Origin: a bacterium
GTDB lineage: Bacteria; ARS69
Reading direction: 5' to 3'
Length of the DNA stretch: 7,986 bases
NCBI GenBank assembly: GCA_025774865.1
Contig: JALGZO010000459.1
Span: 1 to 7,986, forward strand
Shown here piece by piece: positions 1-7,986 of the stretch. Under the pieces are notes generated by a model. It was given only the letters and a program-made list of their open reading frames with translations, searched no databases and was not told the DNA's origin. A program made the translations under genes and the position numbers. Position 1 is the stretch's first letter. Each line of letters opens with the position of its first letter.

Positions 1-910
1 TTTCCGCCTCGAAGCACGGCGGGTACTGCCACAGGAACATGCCGAGCACGACGTTGGCGTGCAGGGTGTCGATGCGCCCCATCGTCGTGAAGACGTAGTC
101 ACCGTAGCCGAGCGCATCCTGGAGCGTCACCTCGGTGCTGTACCACGAGCCGCTGATGTTCTGAATCGTGAGATGCAAGCGATCGTTCCCGTCCACCCAC
201 GTGCAACTGGCCGTGTCGCAGAAGAGACTCGGCCCCGGGCCGTAGAAGCCGGGGCCCTTCACCCGCCACGTGCGGCCGCTGAAATCCATCGTCCGCCCGC
301 CGGGGAAATCGAGCCACTGAAGCTCGTCCGCCGTCGGCGGGCCGAGGCTCTCGAACATCGATTCATCGTAGAAGACGTCCGGCGGAGGTTCCGCCGGGCT
401 CTGCAGCACCCCCAGCAGGAAGTGCGTGGCCACAGTACCCGTGGGCGCCGGCTGACTCTGAACGGAGAACGGCACACGCTGATCTGGCGGCGTGGAAGCG
501 TCGGCCACCGTGTGCGACTCGAAGCCGATCTGGTCGCCGACCGCGTTGTGCCACTCGATGTTCAGGATCGCGCGCGACTCGCCGGTCAGCGGATTGGCCG
601 ACGAATGCCACCCGATCACCGACGCGACCCACTGCTCGCCGGGAGCGGAGTCCAGACGTTGCCAGTATCCGGAAACGTCCCAGCCGCCCAGATCGGGACC
701 CGAGAGCCTCGCCGCCGCCGCGCCGTGAGTCGCGTCCGTCGAGGAGCCGACCAGTCCGAACTGATTCCAGCCTCCGAACGTCTGCCCACCGGATCCGGAC
801 ACCTCGAAGCTGGGATTTGCGAGAATGCATTGTCCGAAGGCGTCCTGGCTCGCGGCGGCGCCGAAGAGAAGCAGCGCGGCGGCCAGGTACTCCCTGACGC
901 GTGACATCAT
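1..910 (-). CDS. Secreted carbohydrate-binding / GH16-like (concanavalin A-fold) protein, C-terminus beyond window
   Basis: Reading leftward from 910, the frame stays open to base 1, giving 303 codons with no stop, so the gene continues outside the window. The protein opens with adjacent methionines (910 and 907), arginines and a hydrophobic core LAAALLLFGAAA, then probable cleavage near AFGQ: a Sec signal peptide. Residues about 28-165 begin CILANPSFEV and contain GGW, HGAA and GYWQRL motifs, resembling CBM4/9- or DUF642-like beta-sandwich binding domains. From about residue 205 the sequence (W215 in RTWRVK, then GPGPSLF, WVDGNDRLHLTI, GYGDYVF, NVVLGMFLW) matches the strand pattern of bacterial GH16/concanavalin A-like proteins. 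The acidic E-x-D-x-E catalytic segment expected just after FLW falls beyond the edge, so enzymatic activity cannot be judged; a purely lectin-like role is possible. Shine-Dalgarno GGGGAG lies 4 bases before the first ATG and 7 before the second. The gene follows the TPR gene on the same strand, possibly co-transcribed. Confidence 0.82.
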   Translation of the reverse strand, partial: MMSRVREYLAAALLLFGAAASQDAFGQCILANPSFEVSGSGGQTFGGWNQFGLVGSSTDATHGAAAARLSGPDLGGWDVSGYWQRLDSAPGEQWVASVIGWHSSANPLTGESRAILNIEWHNAVGDQIGFESHTVADASTPPDQRVPFSVQSQPAPTGTVATHFLLGVLQSPAEPPPDVFYDESMFESLGPPTADELQWLDFPGGRTMDFSGRTWRVKGPGFYGPGPSLFCDTASCTWVDGNDRLHLTIQNISGSWYSTEVTLQDALGYGDYVFTTMGRIDTLHANVVLGMFLWQYPPCFEAE

Positions 911-964
911 GGGGCTCCCCAGATAGCTCATGGATCGACTCAGCGCGATCCCATGACAATGGTA

Positions 965-998: not shown

Positions 999-2741
999 CT
1001 ATTCGATCTGCTGCTCCTCTTGCTCTTCGATCAAGTCGTCGAGATCCGCGATGGCAACCTCCACCCGTCGGCGTTCCTTCGCCGACAGCCACATGCTCTC
1101 CTGCGAAGCGATGAGCGCGTCCCGCGCCTCCCGGTACCGGGTCGCGTCCTCGAGCCTCCGTGCCATCCGGAGCCGCGGTCGCACGCGTTGCGGATTCTCC
1201 GCGAACAGAGCGTCCCAGTACGCCTGCGCCTGATCGGCGTTCTCTTCGAACGACAGGAGCGCGAGCCTCTCCTGCGCGAGCGGCCTCGCCGCCGGTGCGT
1301 CCAGCAGCTGAATCCAGAGCTCGATCGCGTCTTCGTTCCGATCGACCGACTCGAGCGCTTCCGCGCGAATCACCGCAAGACGCTCCTGCTCGGGCCCCGC
1401 GCCCTCGGTCCAGCCGATGGCTCCCGCGGCCGACCCCGCTCGCAGGTGTACGAGCGCCAGAACCACGCGGCGCGGATCGTCGAGTGGAACCGAGTCCCGG
1501 TCCGCCACGACTTCGTGATACGGAAGATCTCCGTCGAGCAATCGATCCCACGTCCAGTCGGGAAGCTGCCACGTCTCGCCGGCCGCCGGCTCCTCGGGAA
1601 CCTCTTCCCAGCGACCGCGGGTGGTCAGCGCGCGGGTCAGCCGCTCGCGGGCGGGCGGGAACTCCGGAAACATCTCGTGAGCCGCCCGATACGCGACGAT
1701 GCCGTCGTCGCCGCGCCCCTCCTGCGCGAGGAGCTCTCCGAGCCGGGTCAGTGCGAGAAAGTCGCCGAAGCTCCCCGTGATCGCCGCGACGAGGTGCTCC
1801 AGCCCCTCTTCGGCGAGCCCCTCTTCTTCGTCGAGCCGTGCGAGCGCGAGGCGCGCCGTCGACGCGAGCGCAGGGTATTCCTGGGCGACCACCTCGAGGC
1901 GCTCCCGCGCCTCGCCCCTTCGGCCGAGGGCCCGGAGCCCCAGCCCGAGATCCAGCTCCGCCCACGGCGCGGCGCCCAGTCGAATCGCGCGCTCGTTCTG
2001 CAGCACGCGCATCGCCCGGGCCCCGCGCAGGCGCGCCACCTGTCCGAGCCCGAAGTGCGCCGCCTGTCGCACCCTCCGCTCCGACGATTCTTCCAGAACC
2101 GCGAGGTAGAGCCTCTCCGCGGCGTCACGCTCCCCGAGCGCGAGTAGCGCGTTCGCCCGGAGCACCCGACCCGGGTCGTCCCGCTGGAGCGACGGAACCT
2201 CCAGGAGCGCCGCACTGGACCGGTACTCCCCCTGCAGATTCAACGAGTAGGCGCGAAGGCGCACGAGGTCCGGCTCGGTATCCCTTCCTTCCTCCGCCAC
2301 CGTCAACAGATCCGCCGCGGCGAAATTACCGCGACGGACGTAGAGATCATGCAACTCCGCCCGAGCGGCGACGCCGACACCAGGATCATCGACGAGCTTG
2401 CGGAACACCTGCGCGGAGCCCCCGTACCGTCCGAGCCGATCCAGCAGCCGGGCCTCCAGGAGACGAAGACTCGCCTCGTCCACCGGCGCGGGCGTGCCCG
2501 CGAGGCGCTTCCGGACCAGCCCCAGCGCCACTTCCCAGGACTCGTCGTCGATGGCCCTCTGGATCTCGGCGAACTCCGCGGGGGTCACGTCGGTGCTCTC
2601 GAGGATCGTGGGGTTCAGGGCGTGTCCCGCCGGTCCCCGTCCCTCCGCCCGTGCTTCCCCGCGCGAAGTCGACGAAGATAGGAAGAGCGTCGCCGCCGCG
2701 ACCACGAGAAGAACGCGTAAGGACGGCCCACTACGATGCAA
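999..2741 (-). CDS. Exported TPR-repeat protein
   Basis: A 580-residue protein that is nearly all helical repeats. The N-terminus (MHRSGPSLRV, then LLVVAAATLFL) is a Sec-type leader, so the repeats probably act in the periplasm or at the membrane. From about residue 55 to 570 there are roughly ten or more TPR-like units with the small/large residue rhythm and LG.Y/LG.R turns, for example LLDRLGRYGGSAQVF, LLALGERDAAERLY, GLRALGRRGEARERL and LLAQEGRGDDGIVAY. A Trp-rich stretch near the middle (WQLPDWTWDRLLDGD) interrupts the pattern. The C-terminus is acidic and glutamine-rich (DDLIEEQEEQQIE). No catalytic motif is visible; TPR proteins of this type usually scaffold protein complexes, and the partner is unknown. 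The start is a TTG at 2741, chosen because AAGGAG lies 8 bases upstream and the signal peptide begins there; no better ATG or GTG start is present. It is transcribed divergently from the sulfatase cluster, so a functional link is possible but not shown. Confidence 0.85.
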   Translation of the reverse strand: MHRSGPSLRVLLVVAAATLFLSSSTSRGEARAEGRGPAGHALNPTILESTDVTPAEFAEIQRAIDDESWEVALGLVRKRLAGTPAPVDEASLRLLEARLLDRLGRYGGSAQVFRKLVDDPGVGVAARAELHDLYVRRGNFAAADLLTVAEEGRDTEPDLVRLRAYSLNLQGEYRSSAALLEVPSLQRDDPGRVLRANALLALGERDAAERLYLAVLEESSERRVRQAAHFGLGQVARLRGARAMRVLQNERAIRLGAAPWAELDLGLGLRALGRRGEARERLEVVAQEYPALASTARLALARLDEEEGLAEEGLEHLVAAITGSFGDFLALTRLGELLAQEGRGDDGIVAYRAAHEMFPEFPPARERLTRALTTRGRWEEVPEEPAAGETWQLPDWTWDRLLDGDLPYHEVVADRDSVPLDDPRRVVLALVHLRAGSAAGAIGWTEGAGPEQERLAVIRAEALESVDRNEDAIELWIQLLDAPAARPLAQERLALLSFEENADQAQAYWDALFAENPQRVRPRLRMARRLEDATRYREARDALIASQESMWLSAKERRRVEVAIADLDDLIEEQEEQQIE

Positions 2742-2774: not shown

Positions 2775-2803
2775 ATTCTCGCGGTGAACCGAGGGACTGT
2801 AAA
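2775..2803 (-). promoter_or_regulatory. Sigma70-type promoter for the TPR / GH16-like genes
   Basis: On the minus strand, TTTACA (2803-2798, five of six matches to TTGACA) is followed after exactly 17 bases by GAGAAT (2780-2775, four of six matches to TATAAT). Transcription would begin near 2768, leaving a leader of about 26 bases that carries AAGGAG and then the TTG start. Geometry and leader length are coherent; no operator repeat is obvious around it. Confidence 0.55.
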
Positions 2804-2840
2804 GGGGCGCGGACCGGGATCGTGCCGGCCTCCGTCCTGG

Positions 2841-2882: not shown

Positions 2883-4577
2883 TTGAAACGCCCTCGCCGC
2901 AGCTCTCACCGGAGGCTCGCCGGACTCGTCGTGGCATCGGGATTCGTCGCGACCGGCTGCGCCTCGGACAGCGGTGGCCCCGGCACTTCGCCGTCGATGT
3001 CGGCGGTGCTCCTCATCACCATCGACACGCTGCCAGCCTCCCGGGTAGGCGCCTACGGTGCCCCGAACGTGCGCACTCCGGTCATCGACTCCCTGGCCCG
3101 CTCGGGAATCCAAGTGAGAGACGCCATCTCGCCCGCGCCCATCACGCTGCCCTCGCACTGTACGATGCTCACGGGCCTCGATCCGCCGCGCCACGGGGTC
3201 CGGGACAACGCGCTCTTCTCGCTCGACGACTCGTTCGAGACGGTGCCCGAGCTCTTGCCCGAAGGCGTTCGAAAGGCGGCGTTCGTCGGAGCGCTTCCTG
3301 TCCACTCCCGCTTCAACCTCGACCAGGGCTTCGACCTCTATGACGACGATTTCGGCCCGGGCTTGGATTCGCGCCGCCCGCCCGAACGCCGGGCGCGCAC
3401 GGTGTTTGAGAGCGCCGAGGCCTGGCTGACCGACCCCGCGAGCGGCGACCGTCCCTTCGCGTGGGTGCACGTATTCGATCCGCACTATCCGTATGATCCG
3501 CCCCCTCCGTGGCGGTCCGCCGCCGCCTCCCTTCCCGGCGCCGGCCGGTTCGAGGCGGAGGTCGCCTACACGGACCGGGAGCTCGGCCGGTTCCTCCAGC
3601 ACCTCGACGCGAACGAGCCGGACCGCCGGACCACGATCCTCCTGGTCTCAGATCACGGGGAGGCTCTCGGCGCGCACGGCGAGCCGACCCACAGCCTCTT
3701 CATCTACGACGCCACGCAACGTGTCCCGCTGATTCTCGCCGGTCCGGGAATCCGGCCGCGTCTCGAGTCCACGCAGCGCCGGCTCGTAGACGTCGCCCCC
3801 ACGCTTGTCGCGCTCTACGGAGTCGATCTCGACGTCGACGGGGAGGGTGCCTCGCTCCTGGAGCCGCCAACCGTCGCCGAGGCGTATATCGAGACGAAGG
3901 AGTCGGAGTTCCTGCGCGGCTGGAGTCCGCTGCACGGGATCCGTACGGACCGATGGAAGTACATCCGCGCTCCGAGGCCGGAGCTGTACGATCTCGCGAA
4001 CGATCCGCAGGAAGCGAAGAATCTCTTCGGATCGAATCCCGAGATCGAGACGCAGCTCTCCTCGCTCGTCGACGAGATCCTCGACAAGGCCCGCCTCTCC
4101 GCGCCCGGGGTCATGGACCCCGAGACCGCCGAACAGCTGGCCAGCCTCGGGTACATCGCGACGATCGAGCCCGGGACTGGCGCGGACTCCAGCAAGGATC
4201 CCAAGGACGGTATCGAAGCGGCGGCCAGCCTGTTTCACGGCATCCAGTCGTTCTCGGAACGCAACCTGGCACTTGCCCGGCACCATCTCCAGCGCGCGAT
4301 TCTTCTCGACCCCGAGCTCAAGGAAGCGCACTCCTATCTGGCCAGCACGTACCTCGAGCTCGGTCGCTACGATCTCGCGGCCGATCACGCCGCGATCGCG
4401 CTGGAGCTCCTGCCGCACATCCACGAAGGTGGTGCGCACCAGACGTTGGGAGCGGCGCTCATCGCACTCCAGCGACCGGCCGACGGGCTCCCACACTTGA
4501 AGGAGGCCTTTCGCATGCAGCCGCAGAATCGTGACCTGGCACGGCTGGTCGAAGAGGTGGAGGCTCAGCTCCGGTGA
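2883..4577 (+). CDS. Sulfatase-fold (alkaline phosphatase superfamily) lipoprotein with C-terminal TPR tail
   Basis: A 564-residue protein from the TTG at 2883. A basic n-region (KRPRRSSHRR) precedes LAGLVVASGFVATGC, a lipoprotein-like signal with Cys26 as the likely lipidated residue. Residues about 40-410 form a sulfatase fold: VLLITIDT (D48, metal ligand), TPVIDSLA, PITLPSHCTMLTG, FDPHYPYDPP, and VSDHGE (D257, H258) followed by H270. The position of the formylglycine Cys in CxPxR is occupied by Thr88 (TLPSH), so modification by a sulfatase-maturing enzyme is not expected; Thr may act directly, as in phosphotransferases and phosphodiesterases of this superfamily. The usual DTLR-x-D motif is DTLPAS here. 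After an LASLGY element (419-424), residues about 446-564 carry around three TPR units. Alternative starts are GTG 2850 and GTG 2856; both lack a Shine-Dalgarno, whereas 2883 has a modest GGAA. The far-upstream ATG 2736 is rejected because it adds low-complexity sequence overlapping the divergent gene. The true substrate (sulfate, phosphate or phosphonate ester) is unknown. Confidence 0.85.
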   Translation: MKRPRRSSHRRLAGLVVASGFVATGCASDSGGPGTSPSMSAVLLITIDTLPASRVGAYGAPNVRTPVIDSLARSGIQVRDAISPAPITLPSHCTMLTGLDPPRHGVRDNALFSLDDSFETVPELLPEGVRKAAFVGALPVHSRFNLDQGFDLYDDDFGPGLDSRRPPERRARTVFESAEAWLTDPASGDRPFAWVHVFDPHYPYDPPPPWRSAAASLPGAGRFEAEVAYTDRELGRFLQHLDANEPDRRTTILLVSDHGEALGAHGEPTHSLFIYDATQRVPLILAGPGIRPRLESTQRRLVDVAPTLVALYGVDLDVDGEGASLLEPPTVAEAYIETKESEFLRGWSPLHGIRTDRWKYIRAPRPELYDLANDPQEAKNLFGSNPEIETQLSSLVDEILDKARLSAPGVMDPETAEQLASLGYIATIEPGTGADSSKDPKDGIEAAASLFHGIQSFSERNLALARHHLQRAILLDPELKEAHSYLASTYLELGRYDLAADHAAIALELLPHIHEGGAHQTLGAALIALQRPADGLPHLKEAFRMQPQNRDLARLVEEVEAQLR

Positions 4578-4666
4578 CGGGTCAGCGGGTCGAACCTCAC
4601 GCGAACCATGCCTCTGTGCGCATCGCCGCCGAGGCCCTGGACCCGGGCGCGGGCCGACGAGCATGA
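4574..4666 (+). CDS. Possible 30-codon bridging ORF between the sulfatase and LarA genes
   Basis: GTG at 4574 overlaps the sulfatase stop as GTGA, and its own TGA (4664-4666) overlaps the LarA start as ATGA. It encodes 30 residues beginning MTGQRVEPHANH and ending DPGAGRRA, with no recognised domain. It occupies the whole 85-base gap, where no Shine-Dalgarno precedes the LarA ATG. It could pass terminating ribosomes on to LarA rather than make a functional peptide, or it could be chance in GC-rich DNA where short open frames are common. Confidence 0.25.
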   Translation: MTGQRVEPHANHASVRIAAEALDPGAGRRA

Positions 4667-5949
4667 AGATCCGGCTGCGATACGGGGCGGGCGACCTCTC
4701 TTTCGCGGTGCCCGACGCGAACGTTGCCGGAGTGTACCGCCCGATCCCGCCCGAGGTTCCCGAGAGCGGAAGCCACCTCGCCGCCCTGGCGGCCACCCCT
4801 GAGGCGGAGCGGCTCCGCGAAGAGTCGCGGGGGCGCTCGGCCCTCTTCTTCGTCGCCGACGCCACGCGCGACGAGCCGCACGCCGACATTCTCGAGACGG
4901 GCCTCGCCTACCTCGTCGAGGCGCGTGAGGTGGTCGTCGTGGTCGCGACGGGGTCCCACCGGGCGGATACCCCGGGCAATTGCGAGATCGCCGCTGCTGC
5001 TGTCGGAGCCGCGAGCCGGCTCCGGATGCCGCGGCCGCGCGTCGTCGTTCACGATTGTCGCCGGGCTGCGTTCACGGACCACGGGGTCACATCGCGCGGA
5101 AACCGCATCCTCCTCTCGAGCGTCCTGGACGACGCCGAGCTCTGCCTCATCTCGAGCGACGTAAAGCACCACTGGTTCGCCGGTTACTCGAATCCGCTCA
5201 AGTACTTTCTGCCGGGGATCGCCGCGTTCGAGTCGATCGAGCGGAATCATCGGCTCGCGCTCGAGCCGGACTCGACCTTCGGCCGCCACCCGTTCCATCC
5301 CGATCCGGCCCGGAGGACGAACCCCGTCGCGGAGGACATGCTGGAAGCCTCCGAGCGTGGCCTCGATCATCGTCCGAGCTGGGCCCTGGTCACGGTGAAG
5401 GTCGAAGAGCGAATCGTTCACGCCGCGCTCGGTCCTCTGAGTGGCGTCACGGCGGAGGCCATGGACCGGGTCGATCGCGTCGCGACGTTCTCGGTCGACG
5501 AGTCCACGCGCGTCGTCGTGTCGGCGGGGGGCTCGCCCGAGGACGACACCCTCTACCTGAGTCACCGAGCCGTCGAGCTCACGCGGGCCGCGGTCTCGGA
5601 AGGCGCCGAAATCCTCCTCCTCGCCGAGTGCGCGGGCGGCATCGCGGACGGTCGGGCTGCCTACGAGAACTTCTATGCGGAACTCACGCGGCCGCCTGAC
5701 GAGGTCCTGCGTCGCATCCGGGACGGATACCGCCTCTACCAGCACAAGGCGTTCAAGTTCGCGGAGCTCTTGAGCCGGGTGGGCTCATTTCACTTGCGGA
5801 GCGCCCTCCCGGACGACGACGTCCGCGCCGCGCACCTGATACCCGTGCCGGACGCGCAGTCCGTCGTCGACGCGTGGGTCCGCGAGGATCCCGCCTGCCG
5901 GATCGCTTTCTTCGACGAGGCGAACCGGCTCTGCGTGCTGCCGAAGTGA
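4663..5949 (+). CDS. LarA-family nickel-pincer-nucleotide racemase/epimerase (DUF2088)
   Basis: A 428-residue protein without signal peptide or membrane helix, close to the length of lactate racemase LarA (about 425). The catalytic framework aligns in spacing with Lactobacillus plantarum LarA: D66 and R69 in ADATRDEP (LarA D72, R75), H99 in ATGSHR (H108), then H170, K180 and H196 (H174, K184, H200) around FAGYSNPLKYFLPGI. K180 is the residue expected to hold the nickel-pincer nucleotide covalently. The loop that reads SGGRK in lactate racemases is SNPLK here, suggesting a different 2-hydroxy acid substrate, so no lar symbol is assigned. The family interconverts stereoisomers of 2-hydroxy acids by transient hydride transfer to the cofactor. 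The N-terminal catalytic domain spans about residues 1-255 and a smaller C-terminal domain the rest. The cofactor biosynthesis genes larB, larC and larE are absent from the window. ATG 4663 is chosen because MKIRLRYG begins the conserved N-terminal strand. Its stop overlaps the next gene, indicating an operon. Confidence 0.88.
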   Translation: MKIRLRYGAGDLSFAVPDANVAGVYRPIPPEVPESGSHLAALAATPEAERLREESRGRSALFFVADATRDEPHADILETGLAYLVEAREVVVVVATGSHRADTPGNCEIAAAAVGAASRLRMPRPRVVVHDCRRAAFTDHGVTSRGNRILLSSVLDDAELCLISSDVKHHWFAGYSNPLKYFLPGIAAFESIERNHRLALEPDSTFGRHPFHPDPARRTNPVAEDMLEASERGLDHRPSWALVTVKVEERIVHAALGPLSGVTAEAMDRVDRVATFSVDESTRVVVSAGGSPEDDTLYLSHRAVELTRAAVSEGAEILLLAECAGGIADGRAAYENFYAELTRPPDEVLRRIRDGYRLYQHKAFKFAELLSRVGSFHLRSALPDDDVRAAHLIPVPDAQSVVDAWVREDPACRIAFFDEANRLCVLPK

Positions 5950-7775
5950 CCGCCGTGCGTGCTGCCGTTTCCCGAGCGCAACTCCTCTCCTTCGGCTGGC
6001 TCTCCGGCAGCGCGCTCGGCGCGCTGGGTGGGGTCGCGGAGTCGATCCTGCTCCCGCTCGAGGAGCCGCGGCGCCTCGTCTTCGCGATCGGCGCCGACGG
6101 TCTGCTCGGCGGGACCTGGGGACTCGCAGCCGCCGGGCTGCTACTCGCCCTTCGGTCCCGCGGCTTCGCGACCGCCGCCTCCCGCGTGCTCGGCCTGGTC
6201 GCTTTCCCGCTCGTCGCGGCGGCGTTCGGACTCTTCGTGAACCGGACCCTTCTCTCCGGCGTGCACTTTCTCAGTGCCACGAGCCTCGTCGCGGATTTCC
6301 TCGCGGTGGTCGTCGCCGCGCTCGTCTGTGCCGGGCTCGCACGCCTGACGCGGCGGCGGATCGAGTCGCGTGCGGTCCGACCCCCCGGCGCCGTGATCGC
6401 CGGCGGAAGCGCGATCGTCCTGCTCGCCGGCTTCGCTTCGGCCCAGCTCCGGTCCGCGACGAGCCCCGCCGGCTCCGACCCGCCGAGCGTCGTCCTCGTC
6501 TCGATCGATACGCTCCGACCCGATCGACTGTCCGGCGGCGGCGAGCCGCGCGGCACGTCGCCGCAGATCGATCGCTTCGTTCGTGAGGGCATCCTCTACC
6601 CGGAGGCCATCGCGGTCTCGCCGGGCTCCGCCGCGTCGCACGCCGCACTCCTGACCTCGCGCTACCCCGTGTCGAACGGAGTCTGGTCCAACTTCTCGGT
6701 GATGGACGAATCGGTGACCACCCTCGCCGAGATTCTCCGCGAGAGGGGTTATCGGACCGGCGGCTTCGTCACGAACACGTTCCTCGGTCGCCGCTTCCGT
6801 TTCGACCAGGGTTTCGACGCGTACATCGAGTCTGGACGCGTGGAGCGCCTCGAGGAACCGAGCCCGTCCGTCATGTTCCGGAGCCTCGCGCTGGTTCAAA
6901 TCGTCGACCGCCTGCGCAGTCGTTTGACGCCCGGCTACGACCCCAGCTTCGAGACGGCGCTTCGCTGGATCCGGGAGTCGACGCGCCCCACATTCTGGTT
7001 CGTCCACCTGATGGACGTTCACTCGCCGTACGCCCCTCCTCACCCGTACGGTCCGAGGTTCGGCGCCGAGGCCACCGGCGCGGCGACGGGTCCGCTCGGC
7101 CGGAGGCGGAACCGGTTCGGATGGCGTCCTTCGGAGGAAGCCTACCTGGCCGAGATCCGCTTCGCCGACGCGAAGATCGGACGGCTCCGACGCCAACTCG
7201 AGGAGCTCGGCCTCCTCGACACGGCCGTCGTCATCCTCACGTCCGACCACGGGGAGAACCTCCTCGATCATGTGCCGAACTTCTCCCACGGGCAGACGAT
7301 GTTCGATTCCACGCTGCGCATCCTGGCCGCGATTCGGTGGCCCGGGGCCTCGGACCGCGGCACCCTCGATTCGCGTGTCTTCGAGAACGTCGACGTCCTG
7401 CCGACGCTCGCCGACGCCCTCGCGTGGGAGATGCCCGACGATTGGGAAGGACGGAGCTTCCGCGACCCCGGCGCAGGTGAGCGCGCCATGACCTTCACGC
7501 AGCTCAACCGCGACTTCGCCGCCCGGGCCGCACGGTGGAAGCTGGTGCTGAAGGAGTCGGGTGAGCGCGAGCTCTACGCGCTCGCGACCGATCCGGGTGA
7601 GCGGGAAGGTGTCGCGCCCTCTCCCGAGGAGATCGCCCGCGTCGAGAGCGAGCTCGCCCAGTGGATCGCGGAGCACGCCACGGACCTCTACCGCGATCGA
7701 TCGCAGGTCGTGGACCCGGACGAGCTGTCCCCGGAGACGGTCGAGAAGCTCCGGGCGCTCGGCTATCTCGACTGA
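5946..7775 (+). CDS. Membrane-anchored sulfatase-fold hydrolase/transferase, five TM helices
   Basis: A 609-residue protein from GTG 5946, whose GTGA overlaps the LarA stop and implies translational coupling; GTG 5955 is an alternative. Five hydrophobic segments (about 13-36, 44-69, 81-98, 109-132 and 148-167) are followed by a sulfatase domain at about 180-609. Basic loops (R5/R10, RSRGFATAASR, RLTRRRIESR) all fall on one side, predicting a cytoplasmic N-terminus and a periplasmic catalytic domain. Sulfatase landmarks are VVLVSIDTLRPDRL (D188), TSPQIDRF, HLMDVHSPYAPP, and TSDHGEN (D434, H435) with a later FSHGQ. The formylglycine position reads SAASH: Ser228 stands where Cys/Ser would be, without the Pro and Arg of CxPxR. 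The multi-helix plus periplasmic-domain layout recalls lipoteichoic acid synthase and phosphoethanolamine transferases, although the sequence motifs are more sulfatase-like. The C-terminus ends LRALGYLD, with no TPR tail. The function could be hydrolysis or transfer of a phosphate- or sulfate-linked group on an envelope component; the substrate is unknown. Confidence 0.87.
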   Translation: MTAVRAAVSRAQLLSFGWLSGSALGALGGVAESILLPLEEPRRLVFAIGADGLLGGTWGLAAAGLLLALRSRGFATAASRVLGLVAFPLVAAAFGLFVNRTLLSGVHFLSATSLVADFLAVVVAALVCAGLARLTRRRIESRAVRPPGAVIAGGSAIVLLAGFASAQLRSATSPAGSDPPSVVLVSIDTLRPDRLSGGGEPRGTSPQIDRFVREGILYPEAIAVSPGSAASHAALLTSRYPVSNGVWSNFSVMDESVTTLAEILRERGYRTGGFVTNTFLGRRFRFDQGFDAYIESGRVERLEEPSPSVMFRSLALVQIVDRLRSRLTPGYDPSFETALRWIRESTRPTFWFVHLMDVHSPYAPPHPYGPRFGAEATGAATGPLGRRRNRFGWRPSEEAYLAEIRFADAKIGRLRRQLEELGLLDTAVVILTSDHGENLLDHVPNFSHGQTMFDSTLRILAAIRWPGASDRGTLDSRVFENVDVLPTLADALAWEMPDDWEGRSFRDPGAGERAMTFTQLNRDFAARAARWKLVLKESGERELYALATDPGEREGVAPSPEEIARVESELAQWIAEHATDLYRDRSQVVDPDELSPETVEKLRALGYLD

Positions 7776-7840: not shown

Positions 7841-7986
7841 ATGCCCCGATCGCTGCGCGCGGGCACCGTCATGGCCGCGGCCACCGTCCTTCTCGCCTTA
7901 CCGTCGGCCGCCGAGTACTCGGTGAAGATCAGCCTGTCGCGCGAGGATCCCGACGTCCACACGCTCGAGAGTCCGGACGCCGAGAT
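7841..7986 (+). CDS. N-terminus of an exported protein of unknown function, cut by window edge
   Basis: Forty-eight codons are visible and the frame remains open at the edge. MPRSLRAGTVMAAATVLL followed by ALPSAAEYS is a clear Sec signal peptide, with basic residues, an alanine/leucine core and an ASA-type site near PSAA. The mature start continues SVKISLSREDPDVHTLESP, which I do not recognise. A good Shine-Dalgarno and a TAGAAT box lie upstream, so it may be its own transcription unit. Same strand as the sulfatase/LarA cluster, 65 bases downstream of it. Confidence 0.7.
   Translation, partial: MPRSLRAGTVMAAATVLLALPSAAEYSVKISLSREDPDVHTLESPDAE

Follow-up and report, generated by a model that had tools for sequence, protein, structure and literature searches.

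A LarA-type racemase homologue paired with a membrane sulfatase-fold enzyme in Orphanbacterota, and a second sulfatase-fold gene beside them in one genus

The window, that is, the whole stretch of DNA analyzed here (7986 bp), is one entire contig (C463) of the metagenome-assembled genome (MAG) G000, which comprises 785 contigs with a completeness of 92.65% and a contamination of 8.3%. Its features are the following:

1-931, minus strand: gene for a secreted protein
999-2741, minus strand: up1, secreted or anchored TPR protein, divergent from the operon (open reading frame and TPR matches)
2795-2810, plus strand: GACTGTAAAGGGGCGC, a word common to the window and G002, in the intergenic region between up1 and the operon
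2883 (TTG)-4577, plus strand: S1, lipoprotein with a sulfatase fold, Thr at the nucleophile position, and a C-terminal TPR region
4663 (ATG)-5949, plus strand: LarA homologue, of the nickel-pincer nucleotide (NPN)-dependent 2-hydroxyacid racemase/epimerase family
5946 (GTG)-7775, plus strand: S2, about five transmembrane (TM) helices and a sulfatase-fold domain predicted to be extracytoplasmic, in which the nucleophile position is Ser
7841-7986, plus strand: SP, secreted protein conserved 3′ of S2, cut by the contig end

As the initial annotation had described, S1, LarA, and S2 are co-directional and tightly packed, with a gap of 85 bp between S1 and LarA and a 4-base overlap (GTGA) between LarA and S2. 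That three-gene description did not include SP, a fourth co-directional gene starting at 7841, which is kept downstream of S2 and for which no Pfam match was found in any of three homologues. The Orphanbacterota comparison set consisted of five genomes (G000 to G004), among which G001, G002, and G003 belong to the same family as G000 and have LarA or S2 at the corresponding locus. The G002 contig (JALGZR010000033.1, MAG M3-44_Bin_119) was placed in Orphanbacterota, within the FCB superphylum, by Gong et al., whose Orphanbacterota MAGs come mostly from Bohai Sea sediment (PMC9727166).

Both S1 (E = 4.2e-29, 102 bits) and S2 (E = 1.6e-33, 117 bits) match the Sulfatase domain PF00884 well above its gathering cut-off of 25. 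S1 has the lipobox VATGC and TPRs located C-terminal of the sulfatase domain, and S2 has approximately five N-terminal TM helices according to hydropathy, with a low-confidence structure model (pLDDT 52), in agreement with the earlier view of one lipoprotein and one membrane-integral enzyme. Because the basic loops of S2 are positioned as for an N-in/C-out protein, its catalytic domain should face the outside. The residue at the formylglycine position is Thr in S1 (T-L-P-S-H) and Ser in S2 (S-A-A-S-H), and the motif of formylglycine-dependent S1-type sulfatases (C/S-x-P/A-x-R) is absent from both, so that their designation as noncanonical was justified. The closest solved sequences are carrageenan sulfatase 6pt6 for S1 and choline sulfatase 7oz8 for S2. 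Like S1-type sulfatases, choline sulfatase, and phosphonate monoester hydrolases of the alkaline phosphatase superfamily, S1 and S2 have a sulfatase domain with D-H-G-E; unlike them, they have no formylglycine motif, and S2 carries TM helices while S1 carries a TPR tail.

Approximately 60 sulfatase-fold matches per genome were counted in G000 and G002, where a match does not always represent a whole gene. In the DNA analyzed from G000 to G004, the nucleophile position of 54 sampled S1 and S2 relatives was occupied by Thr (48) or Ser (6) and never by Cys, in a sample that was seeded with S1 and S2 and is therefore biased toward the seeds' own kind; a separate pattern search did pick up one open reading frame with the canonical C-x-P-x-R. 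A non-formylglycine residue at this position is the norm in these genomes. A second S2-type gene, approximately 55% identical to S2, lies on another G000 contig (C498; locus L061, 4324-6306) without LarA and adjoins a large protease-like secreted protein.

The LarA homologue contains the Lar_N domain (PF09861; E = 2e-23 in a profile search), and its LarA_C match, at 19.8 bits, falls under that domain's cut-off of 25. It matches LarA families over its full length with every score under the equivalog cut-off, and its best NCBIfam matches are the malate racemase equivalogs NF052593 (175.8 bits; cut-off, 500) and NF052595 (168.7 bits; cut-off, 462), both of whose cut-offs it fails. The structure model (pLDDT 95.7) aligned to LarA and Mar2 structures with TM scores of 0.71 to 0.86, the maximum being to LarA of Lactobacillus plantarum (5huq). 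With a Lar_N domain and the LarA fold over its whole length, the protein is a member of the LarA superfamily, and hydropathy detected no hydrophobic segment. The equivalents of NPN-binding Arg75, Lys184, and His200 and of catalytic Asp72, His108, and His174 (LarA numbering) are all present. In the tree, the window protein belongs to a clade of 21 sequences, set apart from all others by a branch with a support of 100, that come from Orphanbacterota, Planctomycetota, Nitrospinota, Poribacteria, Fidelibacterota, and two further bacteria; the same six residues are kept in 21/21 of them in the alignment. They are also common to L. plantarum LarA, which is alike in its whole fold; its Trp358/Thr359, Gln295, Lys298, and Gly-Gly, however, are absent from the window protein, and identity is approximately 20%.

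As for the genes of the NPN cofactor, larB and larC lie side by side in G000. Within the family, LarE was found above the cut-off in G002 and G003 only, with none above it in the incomplete MAG G000. In G001 and G004, both also incomplete, larC is retained together with at least a portion of larB, and no larA of the window kind was found.

The gene order in the relatives was then compared at four usable loci, on which the conservation described here rests. In G003, the order is tRNA-Ala, LarA, S2, and SP, with no S1 upstream of LarA, and in G002 it is up1 (minus strand), LarA, S2, and SP, with no S1 between up1 and LarA. In G001, whose MAG is 67% complete and whose locus lies on one contig, tRNA-Ala and up1 (minus strand) are followed by S2, with neither LarA nor S1 present and with an SP homologue approximately 3.5 kb past S2. 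The up1 orthologues (58% and 51%) adjoin LarA in G002 and S2 in G001. The G002 contig C154 ends 5′ of LarA with the first up1 codons approximately 110 bp from LarA, and contig C279 carries the rest of up1; since the ends of the two contigs (L033 and L273, respectively) overlap by 114 identical bases, they are evidently neighbors in the genome, and with up1 starting so close to LarA there is no space for S1. The order LarA-S2-SP is thus kept in three genera (G000, G002, and G003), with the GTGA overlap at the LarA-S2 junction in G000 and G002 and a distance of 33 bp in G003. Near the operon, both G003 and G002 also have a gene of the XdhC family and one for a long secreted protein whose C-terminal domain is sorting-like (L032 13339-14250, L033 6721-7704). 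The simplest ancestral order is tRNA-Ala, up1 (minus strand), LarA, S2, and SP; from this order, G001 would have lost LarA, G003 would have lost up1, and G000 would have gained S1.

The nearest relatives of S1 head the sulfatase arrays of G003 contig C2 and G001 contig C238 (tree support, 97). Orthologues of the later array genes are found on G000 contig C97, which begins partway through the array and thus does not show the place that S1 would once have occupied. In the window, the word GACTGTAAAGGGGCGC is found in the stretch from up1 to S1, and in G002 it is found in the stretch from up1 to LarA; we used it as positional evidence and do not name it as a promoter. Its first 14 bases occur once in 320 kb of G000. 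Since S1 is the orthologue of an array-head gene located elsewhere in two relatives, it would have been inserted into the LarA operon in the genus of G000, most likely, by parsimony, between the old upstream region and LarA. An ancestral S1 followed by losses in three relatives would be less likely, as it needs more events and leaves the array-head orthology unexplained. The three genes had been proposed to form a system, and that idea does not hold, as S1 is missing from the LarA locus of the relatives and has array-head orthologues instead. The scatter of homologues that had been expected to speak against such a system was indeed found for S1, in the arrays of G003 and G001, and was not found for S2, which stays in the order LarA-S2-SP in three genera.

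To set the LarA-S2 pair against a background, 42 G000 contigs (320 kb) were compared with 1.63 Mb of G003, counting unique pairs of co-directional genes separated by no more than 300 bp, provided that both genes were also found in the sampled G003 DNA and excluding the window. As many as 26/28 such pairs were still adjacent in G003, a count that leans toward adjacency since orthologues in unsampled DNA go unseen. LarA-S2 is thus an ordinary conserved pair, and a special linkage read from adjacency alone was rejected after this count. A scan of an 84,980-species collection gave 68 LarA loci, and no S1 or S2 relative was found near the 67 outside the phylum (tblastn, E ≤ 1e-8), many of which are short or at contig ends. 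The sole locus with such a relative, L064, is G002 itself, so the adjacency to both sulfatase types that had been anticipated across distant genomes did not materialize. No relatives were found in viral contigs, and a literature search returned nothing on an operon of lactate racemase and sulfatase. Elsewhere, with gene names taken from reading the sequence, LarA neighbors trypsin-like proteases in three planctomycetes and pyruvate dehydrogenase genes in two. At four Phycisphaerae loci of one subclade (L065, L076, L077, and L079, with LarA at 10001, 5360, 10001, and 10001), LarA lies directly 3′ of murE-murF-mraY, approximately 20 bp past mraY, the names again being read from the sequence.

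These observations bear on what, if anything, LarA and S2 do together. We give roughly even odds to an incidental operon, in which unrelated pathways share one promoter and LarA serves central carbon metabolism. The abundance of sulfatase-fold matches makes such neighbors likely, the neighbors of LarA vary by phylum, and the background synteny is high; however, the LarA-S2 start/stop overlap, kept by two genera, suggests that coupled expression is under selection. We regard as unlikely a coupled envelope pathway, in which LarA would set the stereochemistry of a hydroxyacid that S2 (here also S1) attaches to or releases from the envelope or an extracellular polymer. The 4-base overlap, the joint presence of LarA and S2 with the secreted protein in three genera, and the landing of S1 in this very operon are in its favor. 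Nonetheless, S2 is found in the absence of LarA, both in G001 and as the C498 paralogue, LarA relatives elsewhere have no sulfatase neighbor, the adjacency is at background level, and the operon is without a transporter or a dedicated acyltransferase. The specific route first suggested, release of an esterified hydroxyacid outside and its isomerization inside, gained no positive evidence; G001 and the C498 locus each have an S2-type gene and no LarA. As a system the trio thus appears ordinary, and LarA and S2 a conserved pair for which the evidence of coupling would be limited to a shared, predicted operon.

A different question is whether the LarA clade catalyzes racemization at all. In Isosphaera LarA, the substrate carboxylate is bound by Arg73, Gln295, and Lys298 together with two His residues (PMC11851776). 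In contrast to characterized racemases, position 298 is Arg in 21/21 clade sequences (Arg302 in the window), Gln295 is found in 0/21 (Leu299 in the window), and the Gly-Gly of GYSGGxK before the cofactor lysine is likewise found in 0/21, with Asn-Pro in most members. Positions 358/359 are His-Lys in the clade (H361 and K362 in the window) and Tyr-Lys in two members, and His174 is followed by Tyr-Phe in the clade and by Trp-Phe in the window. His/Gln and Lys at 358/359 are the malate racemase signature of Urdiain-Arraiza et al., and Tyr-Phe after His174 is ascribed to 2-hydroxyglutarate racemases (PMC11770544). Judged from these residues, the predicted pocket is malate-racemase-like, and His-Lys together with the aromatic-Phe pair points to a 2-hydroxydicarboxylate as the candidate substrate. 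The malate racemases Mar1 and Mar2 (LarAH5 and LarAH6; PDB 6d6z and 7s91) share the fold, the NPN and catalytic His residues, and His-Lys at 358/359 with the window protein, which differs from them in Lys298 (Arg), the loss of Gln295, the replacement of Gly-Gly by Asn-Pro, and scores far under the cut-offs; Mar2 and the clade are separate in the tree.

Given the change of two carboxylate-binding residues, the reaction could differ from racemization, and a clade of nonracemases that use NPN for another hydride transfer was raised by Desguin et al. for superfamily groups that lack K298 and whose activity is undescribed (PMC7583248). Lys298, with Gln295, is present in characterized racemases and missing from some groups, and does not define the superfamily (PMC7583248), so membership stands, and racemase activity becomes less sure. 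The K298 replacement may be among the 25 published LarAH groups and thus have been seen before; no enzyme activity was reported, in the literature searched, for a protein with the pattern of Arg298, no Gln295, and no Gly-Gly. Its uniformity across the clade speaks for another reaction; against it, neither of the catalytic His nor any of the NPN residues has been lost, and Arg is a conservative carboxylate binder. We find this alternative rather improbable. It is a long shot that the clade carries out a novel NPN-dependent reaction on a precursor of the envelope and that the Orphanbacterota operon couples it to the Ser-type membrane enzyme, which would install or remove the group in question outside the cell. 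An assembly artefact, in which S1 was wrongly joined between up1 and LarA, would fit a fragmented MAG with contamination and the absence of S1 at the matching place in G002, but is very improbable, as it would take two separate false joins, placed exactly around a single complete gene and with the shared word still beside up1.

The reading that we consider probable as a whole is that of a LarA-S2-SP operon with a racemase-type NPN enzyme, a membrane hydrolase or transferase, and a transplanted S1. The operon, divergent from up1, would be ancestral to at least part of the Orphanbacterota family. LarA would be a cytosolic NPN enzyme that acts on an anionic 2-hydroxyacid, inverting it at C2 while the cofactor takes up the hydride, and it is most likely a racemase of a 2-hydroxydicarboxylate, predicted to be co-transcribed with S2; its pocket residues suggest a C4-C5 substrate, e.g., malate or 2-hydroxyglutarate, whose 1-carboxylate would be bound by the Arg at position 298 instead of the usual Gln and Lys. 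S2 would be a membrane-anchored hydrolase or transferase of the alkaline phosphatase superfamily with its Ser nucleophile outward, and S1, which is a lipoprotein of the Thr type and belongs to this superfamily as well, would have moved from a sulfatase array to the site 5′ of LarA in one genus only. A pathway shared by LarA and S2 is, in our view, the less probable case, and the incidental operon is compatible with this reading, from which it differs only by denying that link. Against the preferred reading are the lack of LarE above the cut-off in the incomplete G000, the two changed carboxylate-binding residues, and a LarA-S2 conservation not above background.

What appears new here is a LarA sub-branch that retains the catalytic machinery but has, throughout, other residues in place of those holding the substrate carboxylate. 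The three neighboring genes do not amount to evidence of a pathway; a recently inserted member of a very large enzyme family can mimic one. The absence of Cys from 54/54 sampled relatives weakens the published inference of sulfate-ester use (PMC9727166), and sulfate-ester scavenging by Orphanbacterota should not be inferred from sulfatase counts alone. The LarA sub-branch, present in these little-known marine-sediment bacteria, is the part worth an enzyme assay.
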